From Chaetoderma sp. LZ-2023a (taxonomy: Eukaryota > Mollusca > Caudofoveata > Chaetodermatida > Chaetodermatidae), in contig CM067370.1 in the NCBI GenBank assembly GCA_034401795.1, positions 68,011,188 through 68,075,187 of the forward strand: a stretch of 64,000 nucleotides of DNA, in the 5' to 3' direction. The translations under genes and the position numbers were made by a program. The notes below the pieces were generated by a model. That model saw nothing but the letters and a program-made list of their open reading frames with translations. It was not told the origin of the DNA and did no database searches. This document shows, in pieces, positions 5,873 to 58,448 of the stretch; position 1 is the first letter of the stretch, and every line of letters starts with the position of its first letter.

Positions 5873-6557
5873 TTATTTTCTGAGGACTGAGACGGCGAGC
5901 GGGTTGGAAGTGTCACGGAGATAATGGTCAGTAAAACTTGATTCACAGTGCCACCAAGCTACTGACATAATGTCTTCAACAGAAACACCATTAAATAATG
6001 CCGTGGAAGCTATCACACCACGGACACTATGAGCATTGGCTCTATCTACTTGTTTTCCAGTGGCTATCTTATGACAGAATTGAATGTATTCTCCTATCCA
6101 TCTGGAAATAGTGTCTCTTGATTCCCTACCATGGGGTTCAATATATGACAACCATAGGGAGCAACGGGTCAGTCCGCCAAACCCGAGTCCTTTTCTTGTA
6201 CTTATTTAAGACATGGACAGGATACCATGCTTTAGCACCAGGATCATATCTGGTTAAGGCAGGTAAAATTATAGGTTGACCCGGTTATTTTGAAGATTGA
6301 TTCTTAGCCAAGAAATTCAATCTCGGTATAAGCTTAAGGCAAACACCTGAATCTATATAACGGTCAGGCTCAGCAGACAAGGCATGAATTTCACTTCTGC
6401 TTCTGGCTGAGGCTGTCGCAGTTAAAAAAACAGTTTTAAGTGTCAATAATTTTATAAAAACAGCACTAAGTGGTTCAAAAGGTTTATCACTCAAAACTTG
6501 AAGAACCAGAGAAAGACTCCATGACGGTGTCTGTGGAGGATTTCTCGGTCTAAGATT
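5873..6557 (-). pseudogene. DIRS tyrosine recombinase, catalytic part (broken)
   Basis: This is the catalytic part of a tyrosine recombinase. It reads about WSLSLVLQVLSDKPFEPL and LLTLKTVFLTATASARSRSE (first catalytic Arg region), then after a frameshift near 6150-6285 about DTISRWIGEYIQF, the HxxR box in AHSVRG, and WWHCESSFTDHYLRD with the nucleophilic Tyr. These are the ordered landmarks of DIRS recombinases. The upstream N-terminal part lies at 9819-10310, and the two join when the inserted transposon 6558-9815 and one ATT are removed. At least one frameshift disables it. Confidence 0.88.
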
Positions 6558-6690
6558 TAGTACAGTAGAAATTGACATGGACCCGGACATTTTGTATAAC
6601 AGACAAATTTTTGTTTTAATCACTTCGGTATGGCCCAAAATACATCCCAGAAAAATTCTCCAAAATTCATGGGGAAATATGTTTTTTAGA
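6558..6690. repeat. Left TIR of the CXC transposon
   Basis: This is the imperfect inverse of 9685-9815. The best block is about 24 bp around 6581-6604 and is identical in both ends. Downstream alignable words include AATTTTTGTTTT against GATTTTGTGTTC, and AGAAAAATTCTC against AGAAATTCTCAC. Confidence 0.85.
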
Positions 6691-6883
6691 GGAAATTCAA
6701 AATGGCCGCCAAGGCGATGACCAATAACCAGATATGTATTTTGACTCTAAAAACCCGTGTTTTGATAAGTGTTGTACAGTTTAAAGTATGTCATCATCAA
6801 AATCACTTGATAAACTATAAATTTAATGCAAACTGAGCGACTGTTGTGAAACACAGCGAACAGGCAGAATGGCTGAAATTTGT

Positions 6884-9186
6884 CTATGCATTTTCACTTT
6901 CAAATTTCGAGCTGTTAAGGCAGTGACCTTCACATTTACAATGTATGCTACAGGGAATGCCTTTCTTGGAGCAACTACACGAGGAACACAGACGTGTGCT
7001 GCTTTTACACTGGCACCTTATATTTAGAAGTAGCTCCGAAGGCGCTGCTGACTTGTCCGTAATGATCGACGTCACTGATCCTTGTTCTACTGCATAACCA
7101 TACTTTTCTTTCTTTAACACAGTTTTAGGTGAAGCCATGTGCTTGCTTGGAGATGAACCCGAAGGCTATGGAAGTATGCTGCCCTACGTGCGGTTGCCCA
7201 CAAATCATCGACCCCACTCCCCTCCATGATCTTACAGCCCGCTCCAAGAAAGGACATTAGTTGGTGGAAGCCACCCAGCCTTATATACATGTTCCTAAAC
7301 TGTGGATGAGTGTCTTGCTTAATTTTGTAGCTTTTTAAGTATAATGGCTGGTCAAATGTTATGGTTGCGCAACACAGTCCTGCCTTTAGGGATTGGGACT
7401 GCACATACATCATGGTACTATATACAGCTCCATTTGTTCCTGGATTCAAAGGTACCATGGGGTTGTAAACTACTGCCGTGCAGTGGAAATTGTTGCATGT
7501 CATTATTTCAGACATGAACCCCTGCCAGTTTGGTGGGTGACTTATGAGAAGGCTAGAGTACAACCACAATGTGTCTAATTGACCGTGCATAGCAATAGGT
7601 AAGCTGATGGGGTTAATGGTGTTTATCCTTACATCTGCCATTAGGGATTTATTAGAAGATGTGTAGGGTAGCATGAAGCTCCCAAAATCACCAGCTTCTT
7701 TGATCTCATCAGCAGTTATAGTTTTATGACATATTGCCCCAACTGGGTTAGCCCTGCTTTCGGTTGATGCCATTGTTTGACACGAAATGATCCCCATCAC
7801 ATGCGTTGTATCGTGACCAGAAATCATGTCCTCGTTGTAATCAAAATTGTCAGCTACCCATTGACAGAAACCACCTCCATCCTTCTTCTCCACGAGCCCA
7901 GGACACAGGTCTTCAACGGATGTGCTTCCAACTGCAGATCTCTGAAATGCAATTACCTGGTCATAGGAAGCACTGAGTCCCAGGGATGAGAGCATCTCTA
8001 TGATAACACGAGAGCGGGTAGACTGGTGGATGAACAAACCAATGGACAGAAGCAGTGGTGATACAAATGATTGCTTTCCAACAGCTTGCATGATAACATG
8101 ACATACAGATACCATCTTAAGTTTATTTTTCAACTTGGCAGATTCACTACGAGGTTCAGAATAGATACATGAAATAAGATGTTTCAATGCATCTGGCACC
8201 TCGATTTCAAGCTTTTCAAGGTCTAAACTGGACAGTTCTGGATACACATCTGATGGTTGATCAATATCTTTAATTGTTTGATTAATCATAGATCCCACCA
8301 GTCTAACAAGTCGCATAGTTTCATCACTCGTCACTGGTTGATGCTGCATATGATTCGTGTATGATAGAAGATGCTCTATCAGTCAATGTGACCACGCTTG
8401 TCTTGCCTTCAACCTGGGATATTGTCACATCTGTCCCAAATCGGCCGAGCAGACGACGCTGGACGTGCTTTATATTATATGCGGGTACACCATTTGGCAA
8501 GTAGGTGGTCAATTAAGTACGAAGGTCGTGTAAAGTGAACTGGCGCTGTTGCTGTTCTGGTGCTGTTAGCCAATTGCATAGATGGTTAAAGCCCACATCA
8601 TTCATGTCATCAAAGTTCCGGGCATTACTTCCAGAAGCAATTCTTGCATACATTGACGATGATATTTGGCTTTAACAGCACATAGGTCACCTGCAAAAAG
8701 TATTCTTGCTTTAACATCATTCGCTAACGAATCGTGCCTTTTGCCACACACGTTTAACAAGGTTCCCTGGACTACACTGAGTTTACCCTTACTAACATAT
8801 TCAATATTGCTTATGTGAGAATGCCGTTCATGGTGACAGCGGACAGCATCAAAGTCGAGCACTTCAGCACATATCAAACAATGAGTATTGTAATCATAAT
8901 GATTAGATTCGGAGCGCAGTGTAGGGGTAGATGGTCGCACTCCTTCATCGTTTCTGTTTTGCTGTTGCACTTTTGCAATATTTCTAGGCAACGTATAATT
9001 TTTGTAGCATTTATCGTGTACATAATGTTCATTCGACGGAGATAGTTTCAAATCAATACCATCTCCACGAAGCTTTGAAGCGTCAAGCAGCGTTGACAGC
9101 CCTCTATGACTAAGTTTTCTAGAACTGCTGCTATCATGGGAAACATTACATACAACACATGTTTTTTCTTGCATAGGGTCAGACAT
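6884..9186 (-). pseudogene. Large Cys-rich protein with C-terminal Tesmin/TSO1-like CXC domain (candidate transposase), broken
   Basis: The gene reads from 9186 down to 6884. The N-terminal part (to about 8602) has zinc-finger-like pairs: CVVCNVSH, then HDKCYKNYTLP, then HCLICAEVL with later His/Cys. A frameshift near 8630 and an in-frame TAA near 8515 follow, then a segment VQRRLLGRFGTDVTISQ (8512-8350), a second frameshift near 8349, and a 411-residue block. That block holds DNFDYNEDMISGHDTTHVMG, then ATITFDQPLYLKSYKI, then RLGGFHQLMSFLGAGCKIME with SGVDDLW. The ordered acidic motifs could be a DDE/D triad, which is inference. After a third frameshift near 7138 the C-terminus has CQCKSSTRLCSSCSCSKKG and CSIHCKCEGHC, a CXC-type domain. 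I recall this as a multicopy unnamed family in corals and molluscs. Confidence 0.8.
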
Positions 9187-9684
9187 AATTGTACTAAACC
9201 ATTAATTAGCATGAACAATGTGATTTTGACTGTATTTATCGTTTTATAATTGAATCGACGTAACTTACTTCAAGTAACATTTTCTAAATTTACCCCGGAC
9301 TATATATTATTGTAATAGTAAGAATAATAGCGTTAGGTATATTTATATCATTGACTGCATAGTTGCGATCAACATGCTGTCCATATGTGTAACTCTCTCC
9401 GTCAGATCTTTAAAAAAACTGGCCATACATTGATGTACCATGTTCTGGAATTCACACTCATGTATCAAATCATATATGGTTGTTATAGACAGGTTTTACT
9501 GATTAATTTTAATTTACATTAGTATGTCTTACAGGTTATTTGACTGGGGTCTGTTGTCATATACACAATTGACAATAGCAATTGTCAGTAGGTCTAATTT
9601 TATAAAATTCTCAACAGATTACCTATTTATGCTAAATATTTTTCACATTTCGTTCCCTAACTTCAAAGGCTTAAAAACCAGGTT

Positions 9685-9815
9685 TCCCCAAGTGTGAATT
9701 TGTGAGAATTTCTTGTGTGGACTCTGGACAGTCATAAAAGTGTTTGGAACACAAAATCGTCTGTTATACAAAATGTCCGGGTTAGCCTATATTTCTGTTG
9801 ATTTCTACAGGACTA
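9685..9815. repeat. Right TIR of the CXC transposon
   Basis: Inverse partner of 6558-6690. On the plus strand it ends GATTTCTACAGGACTA, followed by the ATT target duplication. Confidence 0.85.
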
Positions 9816-9818
9816 ATT

Positions 9819-10310
9819 GCCCATATCTTTGATAAGAGTATTTAGAACACATATTTCATCACTTCCCCTCTTTGCCAAGCAAGGGATAACAGTCATTAAT
9901 GCTGATTTATATCCAGCAATAGAATTAGGCGTAAGACTATAGGCATCATACAGGTGACAGAGAAAATCAGCTACTACCTGAATAGATGTATCCATTGGAT
10001 TGATACATCTCTTTGAGTGCCATTCTGCAAATCTGTTGATTTTATAATTATATGTTCTGGAGGTTGACCCCCTTCTGGCTCTGGCCATAAAATTGGTTGC
10101 TTGCTCAGAAAAGACCTCCTTAATTGCGGATTTTTGGACAACATCCATGCAGTCAATTGAAACATTGACGGATTGTTGTGAAGGGTCTTGCCCTGGAAGA
10201 TAATATTGTCCATCAGAGGCAGAGGAACCGGATTGCAGACCAGACGGTTCAGCAGATCTGTAAACCATTATCAGCGTGGCCAATTTGGGGCGATCAAATG
10301 CACTTGGCAT
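9819..10310 (-). pseudogene. DIRS tyrosine recombinase, N-terminal part
   Basis: This is the N-terminal SAM-like DNA-binding half of the DIRS recombinase. It reads about ARRGSTSRTYNYKINRFAEW, then NPMDTSIQVVADFLCHLYD and SIAGYKSALMTVIPCLAKRG. It ends at NTLIKDMGN, where the inserted transposon adds a stop at once. Without the insertion it continues into the part at 6557-5873. Upstream it overlaps the end of the RT/RNase H frame, as is usual in DIRS elements. Confidence 0.85.
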
Positions 10311-10329
10311 TCCTCCTGCTTAATCTTCT

Positions 10330-12033
10330 GAAGAATCCTTGGAATCAGGATTGTTGGAGGGTATGCGTATGCATACATTCCCTTCCAACTGATAGCTAGC
10401 GCATCTATTGCGATAGCGCTTGGATCTGGAATCGGAGAAGCCTATGTCATCATCTTCGCATTCTTCTTCATTGCGAATAAATCTATGTTGGGTTTCCCCC
10501 ACTGATTGAACAGATGATCCGCCACACATTCATTTAGTTGCCATTCCGTAGGCAGAATGTTCATCCTTCGGCTCAATGAGTCTGCTAAGATTCAGCCTTC
10601 CCGGAATATGAACTGCTTTCAAGGTAATCATATGATCCATGCACCGGCAAAGCAGTTTCCATGTCATCATACAGAGACTGGGCGACTTCGTTCCGCCCTG
10701 GCGGTTTATGTAACTCACTACTGTTGAGTTGTCCGAATGTATCAACACAAACTTTCCCACCACGTCCTTTAAGAAGTGTTCCAGGCCTAGGATTACACCT
10801 AGTAATTCTAGCATGTTGACATGCTCCTTTGACTGATCCAGATTCCAAAGCCCTGATATTGTGGCTTCTTCCAGGCAAGCTCCCCATCCCTCCATCGATG
10901 CATCTGTAAACATCATTACTTGAGGGTGGGGAAGGGTCAGCATGACCCCTGCCAGGAGATTCTCTCCCTCCATCCACCAGTGAAGGTGATGAATGAGAGG
11001 ATCCAACACTTGAATGCACGAGTCCAGTGATCCTGAACTCTGTGTCCACCGAGTCATGAGAAACAGCTGAATAGGCAGCCTGCGCAAGGCCACCTGAGGA
11101 ATGACTGGTTCCATTGAAACCATCAGACCAAGCATTCTCAGATAGACTCGTGCTAGAATATAACAACTGCTGCAAACCAATTGAATGCAAGAGAGAAGAT
11201 TCTCCACTCTCTCCTGGGATGGATAAACATATCCTATCTCCAGATCGAAGAACATACCTAGGTAAACAAACTTCTGGGATGAGTCAGCTTTGATTTTTGA
11301 AAGTTGATTATCCAGCCTAAATCTGTGAGAGTTTTCAAAACTATCTCCAGATTTGCTGTCAAGCTTTCTGGGTTGTGTGCTTTTAGCAACCAAGCATCTA
11401 TGTAAGTGTGGACCACTATATTTCTCCTGCGGAGGAAAGCTGTTATAGCAAGGACCACTCGAGTGAAACCCCTCGGAGCCGTCAAAATTCCGAATGGGAG
11501 AACTTTGAATTCCCATTGCCGTCCCTGAAAAGCAAATCTCAGGAACCGACGACAACTCCTTGCAATGGGAATGTGGAAATAAGCGTCTTTCAGATCTAAC
11601 GATGCTGTCCACATCCCCTTCTTTAACCCCAGCAACACCGATTTTATTGTTTCCATTTTGAAACTCAGTGTGTCTATAAACTTGTTTAGAGGTTTGAGGT
11701 TGAGAATTGGGGCCCCCCCCCCACCCCGGTGTTCTTTGTCACAGGAAACATGGTTGAATAGAAGCTCGGGCAATCTTGCGCCGGTTGAATTGCTTCTTTT
11801 AGAATAGAGATTCAATCTCCTCTTCTATGCACAACCGCTTGTCTGGATCTCTTGGAATTTGATTCCAGACTGGTACCAGAGACAGATGCAATGGTGGACC
11901 TATTATCCACTCTGGACAGTATCCGCGCGAGTGACAATTGCAAGACTAAGCGGTCCTGAATTAACTGCTCCAACTCCTGAATGTGGAAAGTCAATCGACC
12001 TCCACTGGTGCACCTAGGGTTAACGAAGTGCAC
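10330..12033 (-). pseudogene. DIRS reverse transcriptase and RNase H, broken
   Basis: It starts with GGRLTFHIQELEQLIQD (12033), continues after a frameshift at the C-run 11711-11726 into ILNLKPLNKFIDTLSFKMET, then WTASLDLKDAYFHIPIARS and LPFGILTAPRGFTRVV. The active-site box is YIDAW instead of the family's Y-x-D-D-W; GCT replaces an Asp codon at about 11393-11395, so this enzyme should be inactive. After a frameshift near 11297 the RNase H part has MMFTDASMEGWGA, HVNMLELLGVILGLEHF and VLIHSDNSTVVSYINRQGG, with the catalytic acids present. A further frameshift near 10560 leads into the conserved DIRS C-terminal tail (PNIDLFA, IPDPSA). Confidence 0.9.
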
Positions 12034-26183: not shown

Positions 26184-26896
26184 CTTTACTGTATCACGAA
26201 AAATGGCAATCTCGCGAATTATTTCATTGTTTCGGCTTCTAACACTCTGTACTATTTGACAGATGACTGCCGATTCACTCATTTTTATTGCGTTGTACTT
26301 GAACATGTTCAGATACATATTGCTCAACAACCGCGAGAGGTTTCCGGTAATAGGTGGTTTTCTATTGCAAGACGAGACCGGGACCCAATCGAATTAGACT
26401 CTGGCAAGATTGGCGGAGCCGTGAGATTTCGTTCGTAAACAAAACGATTGCGGTCAGAAAAGTTAGGATTGCCGATATTTTTATTTTCCATACCAGTTGG
26501 CCCAAAATTGGAATTTCCATACTTTTTCCAGCCCTGGAAAAGGCTTTCCTAATTTTCCATACTTTTTCCAGACTTCCATACATGCGTACGAACCCTGATA
26601 ATAGAACGATTTTCCAAACAAGGGCAAAGTTAGAATTGAGGAGAAATTGTTTTGCAGTTCGGGCTGTAAACGTCTGGAACAAGCCGTCAGAACATGTTGT
26701 AGAAGCACCATCGGTCAACACATTTAAGGCTCGCCTCGACATACATTGGAAAGACCAACCATTAATATATAACTACACTGCACCATTGGAATCTGGAAGC
26801 GACAGAGCACTGTATGATGATGATGAAGATCTGACCACAGAGGCTTAGGCCTGCGGTCAGAAGGAACCTAAGTAAATCTAAGTAAGTAAAACACAG

Positions 26897-27666
26897 CCAA
26901 TGGATCAGCCAAAGATGCAATTAGGAGCAGAGGTGCCGGACTGCACATACAGTATCCAAACGGACAACATGAGTCAGCTGCAATACCGACAGGCAAACAC
27001 TGCACAAACTACAGAGCTGAAGTCGAAGCACTGGTTCATGCAGCTAATACCATCAGCAGAACAGCAGACCCTATTGCACAGATTGTCTTTTTATCTGATG
27101 CCCGCTCCGGCCTTGAGGCTATCACCAAAGGTAAGCTGCCACAACTTGAAGAAGCACGACAAACCATCAAATGCTTTCGGATAGCATTGCAGTGGATCCC
27201 ATCACACTGTGGAGTCCAAGGAAATGAGGAAGCAGACAAGATGGCAAAGGTGGGTGAAGAAGAGAATCAGACAGAAAACATGGTTACCCCTACAGAGATG
27301 AAGACTATCATCAAGTCACTCTATAGAACACCTCAATCAGAAGATGCCTACCATCATCTCTCGAGGCCAGAGCAAGTGACCATTTTTTGCCTCAGAACTA
27401 GACATAACAGACTGAACCAACATATGTACAGGCGGTTCTACCTTATGACATCGCCTGCTTGTCCTTGTGGAGAAGCAGAGCAGACCACAGAGCACATACT
27501 TCAATGTTGCAGTGCGTATCAGCTGCTGAGAGAAGAGATCTGGCCTTTGTCAACCTCTTTTCTTGAAAAGCTGTATGGGCCTGTGGAAGAACTGCAGAAA
27601 ACCACAGATTTCATCTTGAGAACGGCTCTCCAAGTGTGATACCAGCGATCGAAAAGAAGAAAGAAG
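26897..27666 (+). mobile_element. 5'-truncated non-LTR retrotransposon (RNase H end) with TSD
   Basis: Nearly identical to 52451-53208, the RNase H and C-terminal part of the element at 50233-53210. The flanks AAGTAAAACACAG at 26884-26896 and 27667-27679 are a 13-bp target duplication. It carries a two-base-scale frame break early on, then an open frame (27187-27639) with WIPSHCGVQGNEEADKM and a CPCGE...H...CC end. The 3' tail is GAAAAGAAGAAAGAAG. Confidence 0.9.
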
Positions 27667-35335: not shown

Positions 35336-37620
35336 GAAATTATAAATTGCGGTCCTAAGACTGGGAAGGTACCTATTAGTCACCAGTACCAAATACGGAA
35401 ATGATAATTAAATGTACAATAGTATAGTTACTTGAGTACCTAATAGGCGTCGGTATGGAACAGGCTACTATGTTACTGAAATTGAGGCATGAGCATATTT
35501 GTAGTGCGAGCTGACACGTTCTCTGAGGCTGGAATGTTTTCCGCAGGCAGGTCTCCGCAGCTGAGTTCCGCTGGTAGGTCTCCGCAAGCTGGCTCCTCCA
35601 GACAGGGTAGACACGGTACAGACTCAGGACAGTGAAACAGAGTAGTGAAATAATGTCTATTAGATAATCTCTGTGTAGCGTATTTATAATTTATATGGAA
35701 GTGAGAAAGTTATCCATCCGGCGACGGAAGTAATAAAGTTGAAGTTTGCCCGTTAGAAGAGAGGGCTTGATAATGTTAAGCAGTTACATAACTGGCACAC
35801 GGTGCGGGATGCATCGCATAGCTCTTGCGGCGCACCTAGCAACGTTCCACCAGACTGTGGTAAAAAAAGTTAATTAAAACACACACGACAGGCAGTGCGG
35901 AAATTGAAGTCCACTTTTCAGCATGGCTGGCAGATCCGGCGAGTCATCCACCAAGAATCACCGTAAGCTCTACATTCTGTAGGATTACATTCCGGGCCCG
36001 CACGGCCCGCTCTCGGAAAGGCTCCCTTAGGAAAGTCTGGATACGGAAAGAATAACTTTAAATTTAGTTTATTACCCCAGGATGGCCGTCCGGGGGTGTC
36101 CAAAAACTGGTGGAAGCCGCCGACGTCCTACCACAGCAGATGTGCTGGGATCCATAAGACATCAGTAGATGTGAGAATCACTTGTAGGTCGGCAGTTACA
36201 TCCATCCTCCTGATGGCCCAGAGTTCCTGCGCGGGCCGGCTTGCACACAGGCGATGCTCCTGATTCTCGATTTTTCACCACTTTTATACTACTCGTGACG
36301 TCAGAGGCAGATGCCTCAACCAATCAGCGGCCGAGCAATAGTCAATCAGCGTGCAGCTGGATCAGTGACGTATTTATCACGTGCACAGAATATTCTAGAT
36401 CAGACAGAAAAGAAGAACATCATCACATCCAACAGTCTCTCCTAGCCAATGGTTACACTTCGTGGATGAGAAAACCACCTCCCCCACCTCGTAATAAACC
36501 ACCGGATGTCCGTACATCCAAGGCCTATCAGAACACCTTGGCAGACTCTTCAGAGAACACCACATCAAAACCTACCACAAGCCAATCAACACCTTAAGAT
36601 CACAACTAGTACGACCCAAAGATAAACTGACCACAGATGAATGCTCTGGAGTCATCTACAAGATCGAATGTGACCAATGTGAGGGGACATACATAGGCGA
36701 AACCAAAAGGCCTCTCAGCACCAGAGTCAAAGAACATCTTAAAATTAATTCCAGCTCAACTGTGGCAGAACATACAGAATCCACTGGCCACGTCATCCCC
36801 GCCAGCAGTGCCTCGGTCATCAACATTGAGACCAACTTATTCAAACGGAAGGTTAAAGAGGCCATAGAAATCTACAAGCATCAACCAACCATGAACAGAG
36901 ACGAGGGCTACCGTATACCAGCAGTCTACCAGTCCATGCTGTCACGTGACTCCACAAGATCTGACCAGAGTGACATTGCCAGTGACCGTCAGTTAGCGCT
37001 GAAGAAGTGACCGAGATGGTCACAAAAGCTACACTCAAACAATTTCTAAATCCCGGAGAGGTAACTAATTGTCCTTATTATTGTAGATCTATTTATGCAT
37101 ACACGCGATTACGACGTCAAAAGCAATATTTTGAGATAATTTAAGGGTGTTTTCGCTGATAACTCAGCTATTTCTGGGCCGATTTAAAAATGGTTTACAT
37201 TTCTAGAAAGCTCGTTTAATTCGGGTCCTGATTGGTACATAGAACAACGGGAACGGAAGAATTCTAGGTTTTTACCAGTACCAACTCGGTACACTATAGG
37301 CATGCACTCGCTTCCAATTCCGAGACGTGTCATCAGGGAAGCTCTGACGCGCCCGCATGCGCACATGCGTTTTATTGGACTTAGCCGATTTTAATGACAA
37401 CCTCTCTCATAGGGTCTATGAACGCATACTATCCTACCCAGGGGGCGTGCTTGGAGCAAATCCGGAGTGGCCATTCCGTACCCAGCTTTTCTGGGATGGT
37501 CAGTACCCGTCCGGTCAGTCCATGCTACACCACTCTCAAGTACCTTATTGTCAAAGTATGTACAGTAAACCAAGTACACCACTGTTGGAACTCCGCAGAG
37601 ATTACAGTCAGAGATGTTAG
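35336..37620 (-). mobile_element. LTR relic, family B, split by a Penelope-like element
   Basis: Blocks match 58449-59340 (GGCACCTATTGGTCA-type words, TAGTATAGTTACTTGAGTACC, ACGGTGCGGGA, CCACTTTTCAG, GGATGGCCGTCCG) and 53215-53960 (CGTGACGTCA, GCCAATCAGCG-type, AACTCAGC, TACACTATA). On the minus strand the order is ATTGG boxes, TGACGTCA, then TATAAAAG (about 36283-36290), a promoter layout. The Penelope-like insertion occupies 36402-37083. Confidence 0.7.
36402..37083 (+). mobile_element. 5'-truncated Penelope-like element with GIY-YIG nuclease
   Basis: The end of the RT is followed by a GIY-YIG endonuclease. After a frameshift near 36511 the frame reads LFREHHIKTYHKPIN, then GVIYKIECDQCEGTYIGETK with RPLSTRVKEH, then LFKRKVKEAIEIYKHQP and MNRDEGYRIP, ending at 37007. 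The spacing of YKI, YIGET, R-x-x-EH and the later Glu matches Penelope-like elements, whose nuclease nicks target DNA for primed reverse transcription. TAGATC at 36396-36401 and 37084-37089 forms a short target duplication. Confidence 0.88.
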
Positions 37621-39290: not shown

Positions 39291-41545
39291 GTCATCCACA
39301 CAGGCAGTTGGTCGGTCGATCAGTGGGTTGGTAATCAGTGGGTGGGTGGTTCGGTCTGTCAGCATGTCTATCCGTCAGTCACTCATGCAGTCATCTGACC
39401 TGTCACGCATGCAGTCTGTCTGTCGATCACTCATGCTGTCATCCGATCTGTCACCAAGGAGTTTTTTACTGTCAGTCTCTATTCCTCATGTAGTCATCCA
39501 ATCTGTCACTCATGCAGTCCGTCAGTCTGTCAATCATGCATACATCTGATCTGTCACTCATGCAGTCATGTGATATGTCACTCATGCAGTCATCTGATCT
39601 GTCACTCATGCAGTCGTCCGATCTGTCACTCATGCAGTCATCCGATCTGTCACTCATGCAGTCATCTGATCTGTCACATACGCAGTCATCCGATCTGTCA
39701 CTCATTCAGTCATCCAATATGTCACTAATGCAGTCTGTCAGTCCATCACTCAACTCATGCAGTTGGCAATCCGATCTGTCTTTCATGCAGTCGTTTGTTC
39801 GGTCGGTTACCATGTCTGTCAGTCGGTCACTCATGCAGTCATCTGATCTGTCACTCATGCAGTCCATCACTCTGTCAAACATGCAGTCATCCTATATGTC
39901 ACTCATACAGTCCATCAGTCTGTCTCTCATGCAGTTCATCCTATCAGTCACTCATGCAGTCATCCAATATGTCACTCATTCAGTCCATCTGATCTGTCAC
40001 TCATGCAGTCACCTGATCTGTCACTCATGCATTCGGTGACCAATTCAGTTGATCGGGCAGGCAGTCAGTCAGTTTGTCGTTTAGTTGGTCGAGCAGTGGG
40101 TTGATCAGTCGGTGAGTGGGTGGTTTGGTCTGCCAGTCTGTCAATCAGTCCATCAATCATGCAGTTATCCAATCTTTCACTCATGCAGTTCATCAGTAGT
40201 GCAGGCATTTGCTCTGTCACGGATGCAGTCGGTCAGTTGCCCAATGGGTTGTTCAGTCCATAGGTGTTTTTTTTGTCTCTCAGGATGTCCGCCACTCAAG
40301 CAGTCCTCCGATCTGCCTCTCATGCAGTCCACCTGTCCGTCACTCATCCAGTCATTCAAGTTGTCAGTCATGAAGTCGGTGACTCATATAGTCAGTCACT
40401 CATGTGGTCGGTCAGCCCGTCATGCATGCAATCAGCCGATCTGTCACTCATGCAATTGGTCCATCTGTCCATCGTTCATGTGGTCGGTTGGGCGGCTGAA
40501 GTGTAGTTTGGTCTGTCAGCATGTCCATCACTTATGCAATCATCTGATCCGTCCCTTATGCAGACATCCGATCTCACTCATGTGGTCGGTCGGTCCGCCA
40601 GTCTATCACACATACAGTCAACCGATCTGTCACTCATGTACCCATAAGATCTATCACTCATGCAGTCATCCGATCTGTCACTTATGCAGTCTGTCACTCA
40701 TACAGTCATCTTATCTGTCAGTCATGCAGTCATCCGATATGTCACACAGGCAGTCCATCAGTCTGTCAATGAAGTCGTCCATCAGTCTGTCACTCATGCA
40801 GTCATCCGATATGCCACTAATGAAGTCTGTCAGTCCGTCACTCATGCAGTTGGTCATCCGATCTGTCATTCATGCAGTCGGTTGTTCAGTCGGTCGGCCT
40901 GTCTGTCAGTCCGTCACTCATGCAGTCATCCACTCTGTCACTTATGCATCCCATCCGTCCATCACTCATGCAAGCAGTCATCCGATCTGTCACTCATGCA
41001 GTTATCTGATCTGTCACTCGTGCTGTTGGTCTGTCAGTCTATTGGCCAGTCATCATGGTCGCCAGTCCGTCATTCAAACGATCTGTCACTCCTGCAGTCC
41101 AACACTCATGCATTCAGTCATTCGATCTGTGACTCAAGCAGTCAGTCAGTCATTTGCTCTGTCACTCATGCAGTCGATCGGTCAGTCGTTTGGTCGGTCA
41201 TTCGGTCAGTTGGGCGGCCTGTTAGTCTGTCCATCAGTCGATCACACATGCAGTCATCAGATCTGTTACTCATGCAGGCGGTCATCTGATCTGGCACATA
41301 TGCAGTCAGTCCGTCATCCGATCTGTCACTCATGTAGTTGGTCAGTCGGTTAGCTTGTCCGTCAGTCGATCACTCATACTGCTATTAGAGCTGTCGCTCA
41401 TGCAGTCTGTCAGTCCATCACTCATGCAGTCAGACGTTCTCTCTGTTGGCCTATATGTCAGTCCGTCACTCATGTAGTCGGACATACGATCTGTTACTCA
41501 TGCAGTCAGTCGGTCATCAGATCTGTCACTCATGCGATCGGTCGA
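39291..41545 (+). repeat. 24-bp minisatellite, about 2.2 kb
   Basis: A unit close to GTCACTCATGCAGTCATCCG plus ATCT (24 bp) is repeated with many substitutions and with insertions of GTCGGTCAGTC-type words. Because 24 is a multiple of three, long frames repeating MQSSDLSL arise, the longest 422 codons at 40085-41353. No start context, composition or homology supports a gene. Confidence 0.93.
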
Positions 41546-50232: not shown

Positions 50233-53210
50233 ACCGTTTAACCTGTCGTTAGGTTTATATACAAGTTGCCATGCCAGTTTTGCACTGCGGTTCCAATGAG
50301 CTCACCCAAAATATAGCAGTAGAAGGGAGAAATATCAACAATGCGGTCAAGGAATGTAATTCAAGTATCCTCAAGGCTGCCAATGAAGCGATTCCTCGAG
50401 GGTTCAGGAAAACTACCGCCCCTACTGGACAACGGAACTGCAAGCAGCACATGATAAACTAGACAAGGCCAGAGAAGATGCAGAGGGTAATCCCTGTCAT
50501 GAAAACCACTTCACACTACAACAAACTAAAGCCAGGTATCTAAAGACCAAGCTGGAGGCCAAAAGAAGAAGCTGGAGGGAAAAGATGGCAGGGTTTAATT
50601 TAGAGAGAGACACCACAAAGCTCTGAAGACTGACTAAAACACTGAATGATGAGGGTGTCGGGGGAGAGAAGATTACTCTTGAAGAAGATGGACAAACAGT
50701 CAGGAAAGATGGCTGCAGATGCCTTTGCGAAGGCATATGCAAAAGAAAGCAACATTTCTATACCACGAATGCGTCAAAAAGAGGTTGGAAAAGAGCAAAA
50801 GGAAAGAACAGACACCAACACTCACGATGCAATGAAAGTTGACATTAGTTTAGCAGAACTGAAGAAGTCTATCCGCCAATTGAAGAAGAAGAAATCTCCC
50901 GGCCCAGATGGCATTACGAATGAAATGATCCAACACCTTGGTAATGTATCTCTCCGCAAGTTGCTAGACATCTTTAATCTCAGTTGGACCAATGGAGAGG
51001 TTCCTCAGTGCTGGAAGGAAGCCAGAATGACTCCTATTCTGAAAAAAGGGAAGAACAAGACGAAAGTGCTGAGCTACCATCCTATCAGTCTTACAAGCTG
51101 CATATGCAAGACCATGGAGCGCATCGTCAACCAGCGGTTGCAGTGGTACCTGGAGTCGGAGAACATTATAGTTTCAGAGCAGGCTGGCTTCAGAAGATAC
51201 AGGAGCACAGAAGATCAAACAACACATCTTGCACAGGTCATAGAGGACACTTTTCAAGTCAAGAAGGTGATGCTAGCTGCCTTTATCGATCTGCAGAAGG
51301 CATTTGACAAGGTGTGGAAGGATGGCCTCCTCGTGAAGCTCTGGCGCACAGGTATTGGTGGCAACATGTTCCGATGGACCAAGTCATACCTACACAATCG
51401 CAGAGCTAGGGTGCTGGTGGATGGACAATCTGGACAGAATGTATTGCTGAGACAAGGGGTACCACAAGGCGGAGTATTATCACCAACTCTGTTCATACTC
51501 TTCATTAATGACATTGTAGGAGAGCTGCCCAATGGGATCCAAGCAGCCCTCTATGCAGATGACCTCGTACTCTGGTGCACCGCGGAGTACACAACGACTG
51601 CCACTTACAGAATGCAGCTCGCCTTGGACAGAATTACAGCTTGGGCCAATCGCTGGTGTATTACCATCAACAAAGAAAAATCATCAGCCATGCTATTCTC
51701 ACTGTCCACGAAAACCAAGGTTGGCAATCTGACACTGGGCCGTACTCCACTCGAGTACGAGAACCAGCAGACATACCTGGGAGTCACCTATGACAGAAGA
51801 TTAACATGGAAGGATCACATCCAGAACACAGAGGCAAAGGCCAGAAGAATGCTAAACATCATGAGGAAGCTGGCAGGAACAAAGTGGGGTGCCAATGAAA
51901 GGATCCTCAAGACCATCTACCTAGGTGCCGTACGACCACACCTTGAGTATGGATCCAGCTCATGGATGACAGCAGCTAAATCTCATCAACAGAACCTCAA
52001 CAGTGTACAAAACCAGGCACTGCGCATCATCACTGGTGGAATGAGATCAACACCAATAGAAAAAATGGAACAGACAGCAGGCATCCCACCACTTAGTAAA
52101 GGAAGGGAATGCAAAGCACTGATCCAAGCTGCAAAGTTCAAATCGTTCAACAACCACCCGATGAAGATCAGGCAAGCACAGCTGTCATCAGGAAGACTTA
52201 AAAGATCAAGTTTTGTGAAAGAGACAAAAGCACTTCAAAGGAAACACCAAGAAATGTTGCCAGCACAAATAGAAGACCCAACCCACACCCTTGATCCTCC
52301 ACGCTGGGAAAACAAACTAGAGAGCATAGCTATTCGCACCACAGTACCTCATCTCACAACCAAAGATGAACACAGTGATGTGAGCAAGAAGGCCCTGACC
52401 CTAGCCATGCTGGAAGAAATGTACCCTCAGGAGACATGGATAAGGATCTACACAGATGGATCAGCCAAAGATGCAATTAGGAGCAGAGGTGCCGGACTGC
52501 ACATACAGTATCCAAACGGACAACATGAGTCAGCTGCAATACCGACAGGCAAACACTGCACAAACTACAGAGCTGAAGTCGAAGCACTGGTCCATGCAGC
52601 TAATACCATCAGCAGAACAGCAGCCCCTATTGCACAGATTGTCTTTTTATCTGATGCCCGCTCCGTCCTTGAGGCTATCACCAAAGGTAAGCTACCACAA
52701 CTTGAAGAAGCACGACAAACCATCAAATGCTTTCGGATAGCATTGCAGTGGATCCCCTCATACTGTGGAGTCCAAGGAAATGAGGAAGCAGACAAGATGA
52801 CAAAGGTGGGTGCAGAAGAGAATCAGACAGAAAACATGGTTACACATACAGAGATGAAGACTATCATCAAGTCACTCTATAGATCATCTCAATCAGAAGA
52901 TGCCTACCATCATCTCTCGAGGCCAGAGCAAGTGACCATTTTTCGTCTCAGAACTGGACATAACAGACTAAACCAACACATGTACAGGCGGTTCGACCTT
53001 ACGACATCACCCGCTTGTCCTTGTGGAGAGGCAGAACAGACAACAGAGCACATACTTCAATGTTGCAGTACGTATCAGCTGCTGAGAGAAGAGATTTGGC
53101 CTTTGTCAACCTCTTTTCTTGAAAAGCTGTATGGGCCTGTGGAAGAACTGCAGAAAACCACAGATTTCATCTTGAGAACGGCTTTCCAAGTGTGATACCA
53201 GCGATCGAAA
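50233..53210 (+). mobile_element. 5'-truncated non-LTR retrotransposon, RT plus RNase H
   Basis: It starts within the linker before the RT (NNAVKECNSSILKAANEAIP) and runs to the tail GAAAAGAAGAAGAAG. The endonuclease and ORF1 are missing. Frameshifts near 50455 and 50690 precede the long open frame. The 3' 760 bp is almost identical to the truncated insertion at 26897-27666, so the family has moved recently. RT with RNase H places it in the I/Jockey group in a broad sense. Confidence 0.88.
50646..53195 (+). CDS. ORF2 RT / RNase H / Cys knuckle, 849 codons
   Basis: About residue 75 begins KKKKSPGPDGITNEMIQHLG, the start of the RT. Then come FIDLQKAFDKVWKDGL, RQGVPQGGVLSPTLFILFIN, and ALYADDLVLWC with the YADD catalytic box (about residue 305). 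The RNase H domain starts near 600 with RIYTDGSAKD, NYRAEVEALVHAA and FLSDARSVLEAI, so three catalytic acids are present. The late WIPSYCGVQGNEEADKM has Tyr where the sister copy at 27187 has the family's His. The C-terminus has CPCGEAEQTTEHILQCC. The apparent Met start lies upstream of RT by chance; the true ORF was longer. RNase H may be impaired. Confidence 0.9.
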   Translation: MMRVSGERRLLLKKMDKQSGKMAADAFAKAYAKESNISIPRMRQKEVGKEQKERTDTNTHDAMKVDISLAELKKSIRQLKKKKSPGPDGITNEMIQHLGNVSLRKLLDIFNLSWTNGEVPQCWKEARMTPILKKGKNKTKVLSYHPISLTSCICKTMERIVNQRLQWYLESENIIVSEQAGFRRYRSTEDQTTHLAQVIEDTFQVKKVMLAAFIDLQKAFDKVWKDGLLVKLWRTGIGGNMFRWTKSYLHNRRARVLVDGQSGQNVLLRQGVPQGGVLSPTLFILFINDIVGELPNGIQAALYADDLVLWCTAEYTTTATYRMQLALDRITAWANRWCITINKEKSSAMLFSLSTKTKVGNLTLGRTPLEYENQQTYLGVTYDRRLTWKDHIQNTEAKARRMLNIMRKLAGTKWGANERILKTIYLGAVRPHLEYGSSSWMTAAKSHQQNLNSVQNQALRIITGGMRSTPIEKMEQTAGIPPLSKGRECKALIQAAKFKSFNNHPMKIRQAQLSSGRLKRSSFVKETKALQRKHQEMLPAQIEDPTHTLDPPRWENKLESIAIRTTVPHLTTKDEHSDVSKKALTLAMLEEMYPQETWIRIYTDGSAKDAIRSRGAGLHIQYPNGQHESAAIPTGKHCTNYRAEVEALVHAANTISRTAAPIAQIVFLSDARSVLEAITKGKLPQLEEARQTIKCFRIALQWIPSYCGVQGNEEADKMTKVGAEENQTENMVTHTEMKTIIKSLYRSSQSEDAYHHLSRPEQVTIFRLRTGHNRLNQHMYRRFDLTTSPACPCGEAEQTTEHILQCCSTYQLLREEIWPLSTSFLEKLYGPVEELQKTTDFILRTAFQV

Positions 53211-57611: not shown

Positions 57612-58448
57612 CTATGATGGGGGGGGGGGCATAGCATGAAGTGGGTGGGAATGGGAAGAGATCGGAGGAACGACTTTTCCATCCGGTCCCTTGGACAAAA
57701 CAAGCACAAAATTCTTCAGATATGACTTCCCAGATCTAGTCGACCCGTGCTGAGGAGGGAGAGGGCGAGTACGTATCTGGTCATCGTCGTCAGCGTTAGC
57801 CACTTGTTCATCCATGTTCTGGCTTGGTAGAACTGGGGCTGAACTAGCAACGCAGTGCTCTGCGCTAACCATGGGAAAACTAATTTCCATAGAAATATCT
57901 GTCTGGGTACCGGTGTCATGAGAAACGCCCAGCTCAAGCTCTGGTACTGGGTCATCACTGACACAAGGTTTAAGTCGATCGAAGTGGATGACTGAGGTCA
58001 GGCCATCCGAAGCACGGATGCGGTAGGTCACGTCCGATGTCTTACCTACTACCACATAGGGGCCTTTTCACTGGTAACTCAGTTTACTTGGTACGTTTGC
58101 AGACCATCGTGAATCGTGTACCCAGACAACTCATCCTGCTTCATATGGATCGCCATGCACTCTCCAGTCGTGCCATGTCCTTTGCCACCGGTGTGCAGTG
58201 GATAGTGTTTCTCTCACTAACTCATGGGCTTGTTCTATCCTTTGCCGCAAGAGTTCGACATGGAGAGATGGTGAATATTTCTCCCCTGGTATCCATGGCA
58301 TGGCCAGGTCCAGGGGTAAGGCTAATTCACGGCCTAACATTAACTGAACAGGGGTGTAGCCCGTGCTGGAATGTTCCGAAGTGTGGTAAGCCATGAGCAC
58401 ATACGGGAGCCATAGGACCTTATGATGCTCGTTATTTGTAAGCACACG
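57612..58448 (-). pseudogene. Gypsy-like integrase C-terminal part, broken
   Basis: The first block (58445-58131) reads LWLPYVLMAYHTSEHSSTGY then TPVQLMLGRELALPLDL, the conserved end of the integrase core in Gypsy-like elements. After frameshifts near 58130 and 58055 comes KTSDVTYRIRASDG and VIHFDRLKP, the C-terminal domain that follows the GPY/F motif. It is truncated upstream at about 58448 by an LTR relic, so the catalytic triad is not in the window. Confidence 0.82.

Follow-up and report, generated by a model that had tools for sequence, protein, structure and literature searches.

Does an insert with inverted ends in the genome of the caudofoveate mollusc Chaetoderma sp. LZ-2023a carry its own transposase, and if so, of which kind? 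The insert occupies positions 6558–9815 of a 64,000-nucleotide stretch of contig CM067370.1 (GCA_034401795.1; hereafter the window). It was initially annotated as a complete DNA transposon built around an unnamed Tesmin/CXC-domain protein family. It is, in all likelihood, an internally deleted cut-and-paste transposon of the AcademX type (Academ superfamily), and its target was probably a DIRS-like retroelement.

Boundaries, ends and target sites

The insert is a DNA transposon of 3258 bp, with its gene on the minus strand, and its bounds (6558–9815) are exact. The termini read TAGT...ACTA, opening with TAGTACAGTAGAAAT at 6558 and closing with CTACAGGACTA at 9815, and are flanked by ATT at 6555–6557 and 9816–9818; among duplication lengths of 1 to 8 bp, only 3 bp fits. 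The inverted repeats lie at 6558–6688 (plus strand, 3' end of the gene) and 9672–9815 (minus strand, 5' end of the gene). Each comprises an outer segment, of 24 nucleotides at the former and 34 at the latter, followed by the core CCCGGACATTTTGTATAACA, which is located at 6582–6601 and, as its reverse complement, at 9762–9781. The initial annotation had described imperfect ends that are identical over about 24 bp, and indeed a perfect 24-mer is common to both; inwards from the core, the similarity is 75% over 115 alignment columns. A mechanical repeat search returned an inverted pair of 45 nucleotides at 87%, and the two 160-bp ends, cut one base inside the true termini, align with a score of 161, compared with a best score of 98 among 500 shuffles of one end.

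Empty sites corroborate the ATT duplication that had been proposed. The left flank matches the source genome in at least 40 places (own copy included), and the insert is absent from all 12 host copies sampled, which are the best-scoring of the 39 other matches. In ten of these copies, CTAAGATT, with a single ATT, is followed by the right flank (L052 has an altered next base), and the remaining two (L049 and L050) read CTAAGACT, with ACT at this position.

The same signature recurs throughout the source genome (2.44 Gb), where a core-derived 20-mer located near the ends occurs 480 times (232 and 248 times by strand), compared with no occurrence when it is read backwards. Among 100 of the 480 places, 27 adjacent plus/minus pairs fall within 16 kb and 46 places are unpaired. 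The window copy and the 25 pairs of up to 8.3 kb were combined into a set of 26 units, with two wider pairs (12.4 and 15.8 kb) omitted. Exact 3-bp duplications flank 24 of these units, including that in the window, and in no unit does the match extend to 4 bp; when ends of different units are compared, agreement is seen in 25 of 650 cases. The two failures are L009, whose left end is eroded, and L026, where the triplets agree by eye if a 1-bp end deletion is allowed. The duplicated triplets are A/T-rich (63 of 72 letters). All 26 units have the same asymmetry of 24 nucleotides outside the core at one end and 34 at the other, and the 34-nucleotide end is on the 5' side of the gene in all 25 units that contain coding sequence.

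The protein and its linkage to the ends

Three homologue searches returned 47, 26 and 14 proteins, which overlap in part. Relatives that have a name are all listed as uncharacterized or hypothetical, from Haliotis, Ephemera, Cacopsylla and Ignelater where an organism is given, and examples that align from end to end comprise 1452–1547 amino acids. Their predicted architecture consists of a cysteine-rich N-terminal part, a winged-helix-like domain (structure matches at residues ~180–258 of the P0051 model), a P-element-like RNase H core, a nuclease of the FEN1/EXO1/XPG type and a C-terminus with nine cysteines. The nuclease, which precedes the cysteine-rich end in the relatives, resembles EXO1, FEN1 and XPG in its fold and conserved acidic residues but differs from them in being fused to a transposase.

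The residues expected of a DDE-type active site are strongly conserved. The first aspartate (ADNFD, D419 of P0051) is present in all 24 rows of alignment A3 that have a letter at this position (the stretch of P0040 there looks unrelated), the next aspartate (D422 of P0051) in 22 of 24, and the second catalytic aspartate in 26 of 26. The glutamate is present in 10 of 11 rows of A3, the exception being P0053, whose C-terminus cannot be aligned at this position, and in all 17 rows of alignment A4, which has nine rows in common with A3. In the numbering of P0065, the three residues are D459, D621 and E897. Two of the motifs initially proposed as catalytic, DNFDYNED and TFDQPLY, do hold the first two aspartates; the third, EGSGVDDLW, is ruled out, because the conserved glutamate lies further downstream in IEQxLMR, a region lost from the window copy.

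By its predicted fold, in which the second aspartate and the glutamate of a P-element-like RNase H core are separated by a helical region, and by its conserved D/D/E residues, from which catalysis may be deduced, the protein is a DDE-type transposase, as the initial annotation had suggested. A sequence search of A3 against solved structures yielded no match at E ≤ 1, and Foldseek no significant match to the transposase model. No relatives were confirmed in viral and genome contig collections, from which records of the animal's own genome were possibly left out. The Tesmin/CXC label is justified in part: the five relatives examined have nine cysteines arranged in a CXC-like pattern, and the cysteine-rich parts may bind zinc, but the Pfam model TCR (Tesmin/CXC) matches the window copy only below the cut-off and none of six relatives at E ≤ 1. 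Literature on AcademX, or on Tesmin and transposons, did not connect the protein family to a transposon in titles and abstract openings.

The gene is also linked to the ends. At least part of the protein is encoded in 25 of the 26 units, and the units of about 5.5 kb are covered by this single protein. Gene copies without these ends, which had been named as evidence against a transposase, were sought in the converse direction: of ten gene loci, both ends were present (within three mismatches) in eight and a single end in two; L035 and L029 are one and the same copy. The only unit without a coding match, L020, measures 0.9 kb, has both ends and an ATT duplication, and resembles a miniature inverted-repeat transposable element.

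The window copy as a deletion derivative

Although coding sequence is present between the ends, as initially claimed, it is not an intact single gene but a remnant spread over several frames, and the unit is incomplete. The window copy lacks residues ~709–1402 of the 1505-amino-acid relative P0065; compared individually with ten full-length copies, it has lost 2205–2241 bp. The deletion junction lies at 7191–7196, where CGGTTG (6 bp) is part of both flanking alignments in seven of the ten comparisons (about 2.2 kb missing); the overlap is 4 bp in one comparison and absent from two. All coding remnants are on the minus strand. The cysteine-rich N-terminal part is located at 8605–9186 (8635–9168 aligned with P0065 residues 4–183); the winged-helix-like region follows in another frame at 8339–8650 (residues 190–293). 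The RNase H-like core with the first (VADNFD) and second (TFDQPLY) aspartates occupies 7120–8322 (residues 302–708), and the stretch preceding the C-terminus, together with the nine-cysteine CXC-like motif, lies at 6911–7188 (residues 1403–1495), with a frame change near 7123–7126. The catalytic glutamate and most of the nuclease are lost. Judged from these sequence comparisons, the window copy is a non-autonomous, internally deleted derivative of an element of about 5.5 kb.

Eleven full-length copies, each about 5.5 kb long, are 94.8–96.8% identical over 55 pairs; their longest stop-free stretch is 1273 amino acids, compared with roughly 1500 for the protein. Six genomic matches spanning residues 3 or 6 to 1496 all contain stops, and no intact copy was present among the copies examined. 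The similarity of the copies and their stops would fit a single old burst. Three units (L016, L025 and L031) have lost residues ~267–749 of P0065; because their approximate deletion limits are the same, the deleted form may itself have been copied or mobilised.

Affiliation, host and implications

The element fits AcademX because a DDE transposase is fused to an XPG-type nuclease and the target-site duplications measure 3 bp. The nuclease of Academ is of the XPG type, and Academ proteins carry a Cys8 finger; the superfamily was reportedly first named by Kapitonov and Jurka, and the AcademX lineage is said to go back to Kojima in 2020. Common features are a single large protein that combines transposase and nuclease (in the relatives), possibly a cysteine-rich motif (the Cys8 finger in Academ), the eukaryotic host, and 3-bp duplications in 24 of 26 units, within the range of 3 or 4 bp given for AcademX. 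PMC10045372 ties duplication length to the encoded enzyme and contrasts the nuclease-encoding AcademX (3 or 4 bp) with the helicase-encoding AcademH (9 or 10 bp). The window copy differs from AcademX in its deletion and the loss of most of the nuclease. A point against the assignment is the presence of relatives in the gastropod Haliotis, whereas PMC10294476 describes Academ in molluscs as almost exclusive to bivalves. The assignment is based on description (duplication length, nuclease and DDE core) and not on alignment to Academ reference sequences. The element very probably represents a new family within the named Academ superfamily and not a new kind of transposon; the family initially called unnamed would thus receive the Academ name, which the initial annotation had itself put forward for comparison.

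Other known systems are more distant. AcademH belongs to the same superfamily (PMC10045372) but combines duplications of 9–10 bp with a helicase, and Pfam scans of the long relatives matched no helicase models. The P element and hAT transposons (Hermes) likewise have an RNase H-like core in which a helical region separates the second aspartate from the glutamate but generate duplications of about 8 bp, according to PMC3706591. PMC9587614 places a C/DxxH motif between these residues in P and hAT; here a conserved histidine occurs in G[GA][FM]H (GGFH), and at this position, the only one searched, neither C nor D stands three residues upstream. Kolobok differs in its 4-bp TTAA duplication (PMC9587614).

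An undescribed DDE superfamily, in which a P-element-like core, a FEN1/EXO1-type nuclease and a 3-bp duplication were combined independently, and which resembles AcademX only in duplication and nuclease, is improbable. It would agree with the Pfam scans of the window copy and its relatives, which matched no transposase model and gave only weak matches to DUF6589, a domain of unknown function on which no literature was found (best match P0072, 27.1 bits; cut-off 27). The descriptive nature of the comparison with AcademX and the Haliotis relatives, odd if Academ is nearly restricted to bivalves (PMC10294476), also count in its favor. By contrast, both the duplication length and the accessory nuclease match the description of AcademX (PMC10045372). 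Membership in Zator, PIF-Harbinger or another named superfamily with 3-bp duplications is very unlikely, even though Zator likewise generates such duplications (PMC10045372). The Pfam scans contained no such transposase model, with no comparison aimed at these superfamilies being made. Harbinger elements also have 3-bp duplications, but neither they nor Zator are known to carry a fused nuclease of the XPG type. That a host Tesmin/CXC-like gene family, not a transposase, was captured between the inverted ends is hardly credible, despite the weak TCR match and the occurrence of CXC-like motifs in cellular regulators, and is rejected because gene and ends are linked in both directions and the RNase H-like core of the protein contains the conserved D/D/E residues.

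The insertion interrupts a minus-strand tyrosine-recombinase frame. The N-terminal part of the recombinase is at 9816–10310 (integrase SAM-like models, best 19.4 bits, below the cut-off of 22.3) and the rest, which has a frame break of its own and no match in Pfam and was assigned by inspection and from the joined frame, at 5873–6554. When the flanks are joined with one ATT kept, a single open frame results (...LIKDMGN/LRPRNPPQTP...). Because the recombinase frame and a reverse transcriptase (RVT_1, E 6.5e-18, 11264–11824) are on the same strand, the host at 9816–11824 is probably a DIRS-like retroelement.

Elsewhere in the window, an open frame of 849 amino acids on the plus strand (50646–53192) encodes reverse transcriptase and RNase H and probably belongs to a non-LTR (non-long-terminal-repeat) retroelement; a further RNase H frame (E 9.1e-9) lies at 26890–27636 (plus). 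A sub-threshold GIY-YIG domain (E 0.0045) at 36498–37007 (plus) may derive from a Penelope-like element, and an Integrase p58 C-terminal domain (E 8.4e-12) at 57618–58067 (minus) belongs to another mobile element. A tandem repeat of 24/48 bp (CTCATGCAGTCATCCGATCTGTCA), whose frame is open over long stretches, forms arrays at 39366–41023.

In transposition, the DDE core would nick and join the TAGT...ACTA ends, with insertion staggered by 3 bp, and the fused nuclease may aid strand processing at excision or insertion. Because the glutamate and most of the nuclease are lost, the window copy would be incapable of its own transposition. The link between gene models and ends, together with the P-element-like and EXO1-like architecture, is useful and not surprising: the predicted combination of core and nuclease allows the role of the fused nuclease to be tested, and animal proteins listed as "uncharacterized" or "hypothetical" are tied to a mobile element whose ends and target sites have been demonstrated, which makes such gene models recognisable.
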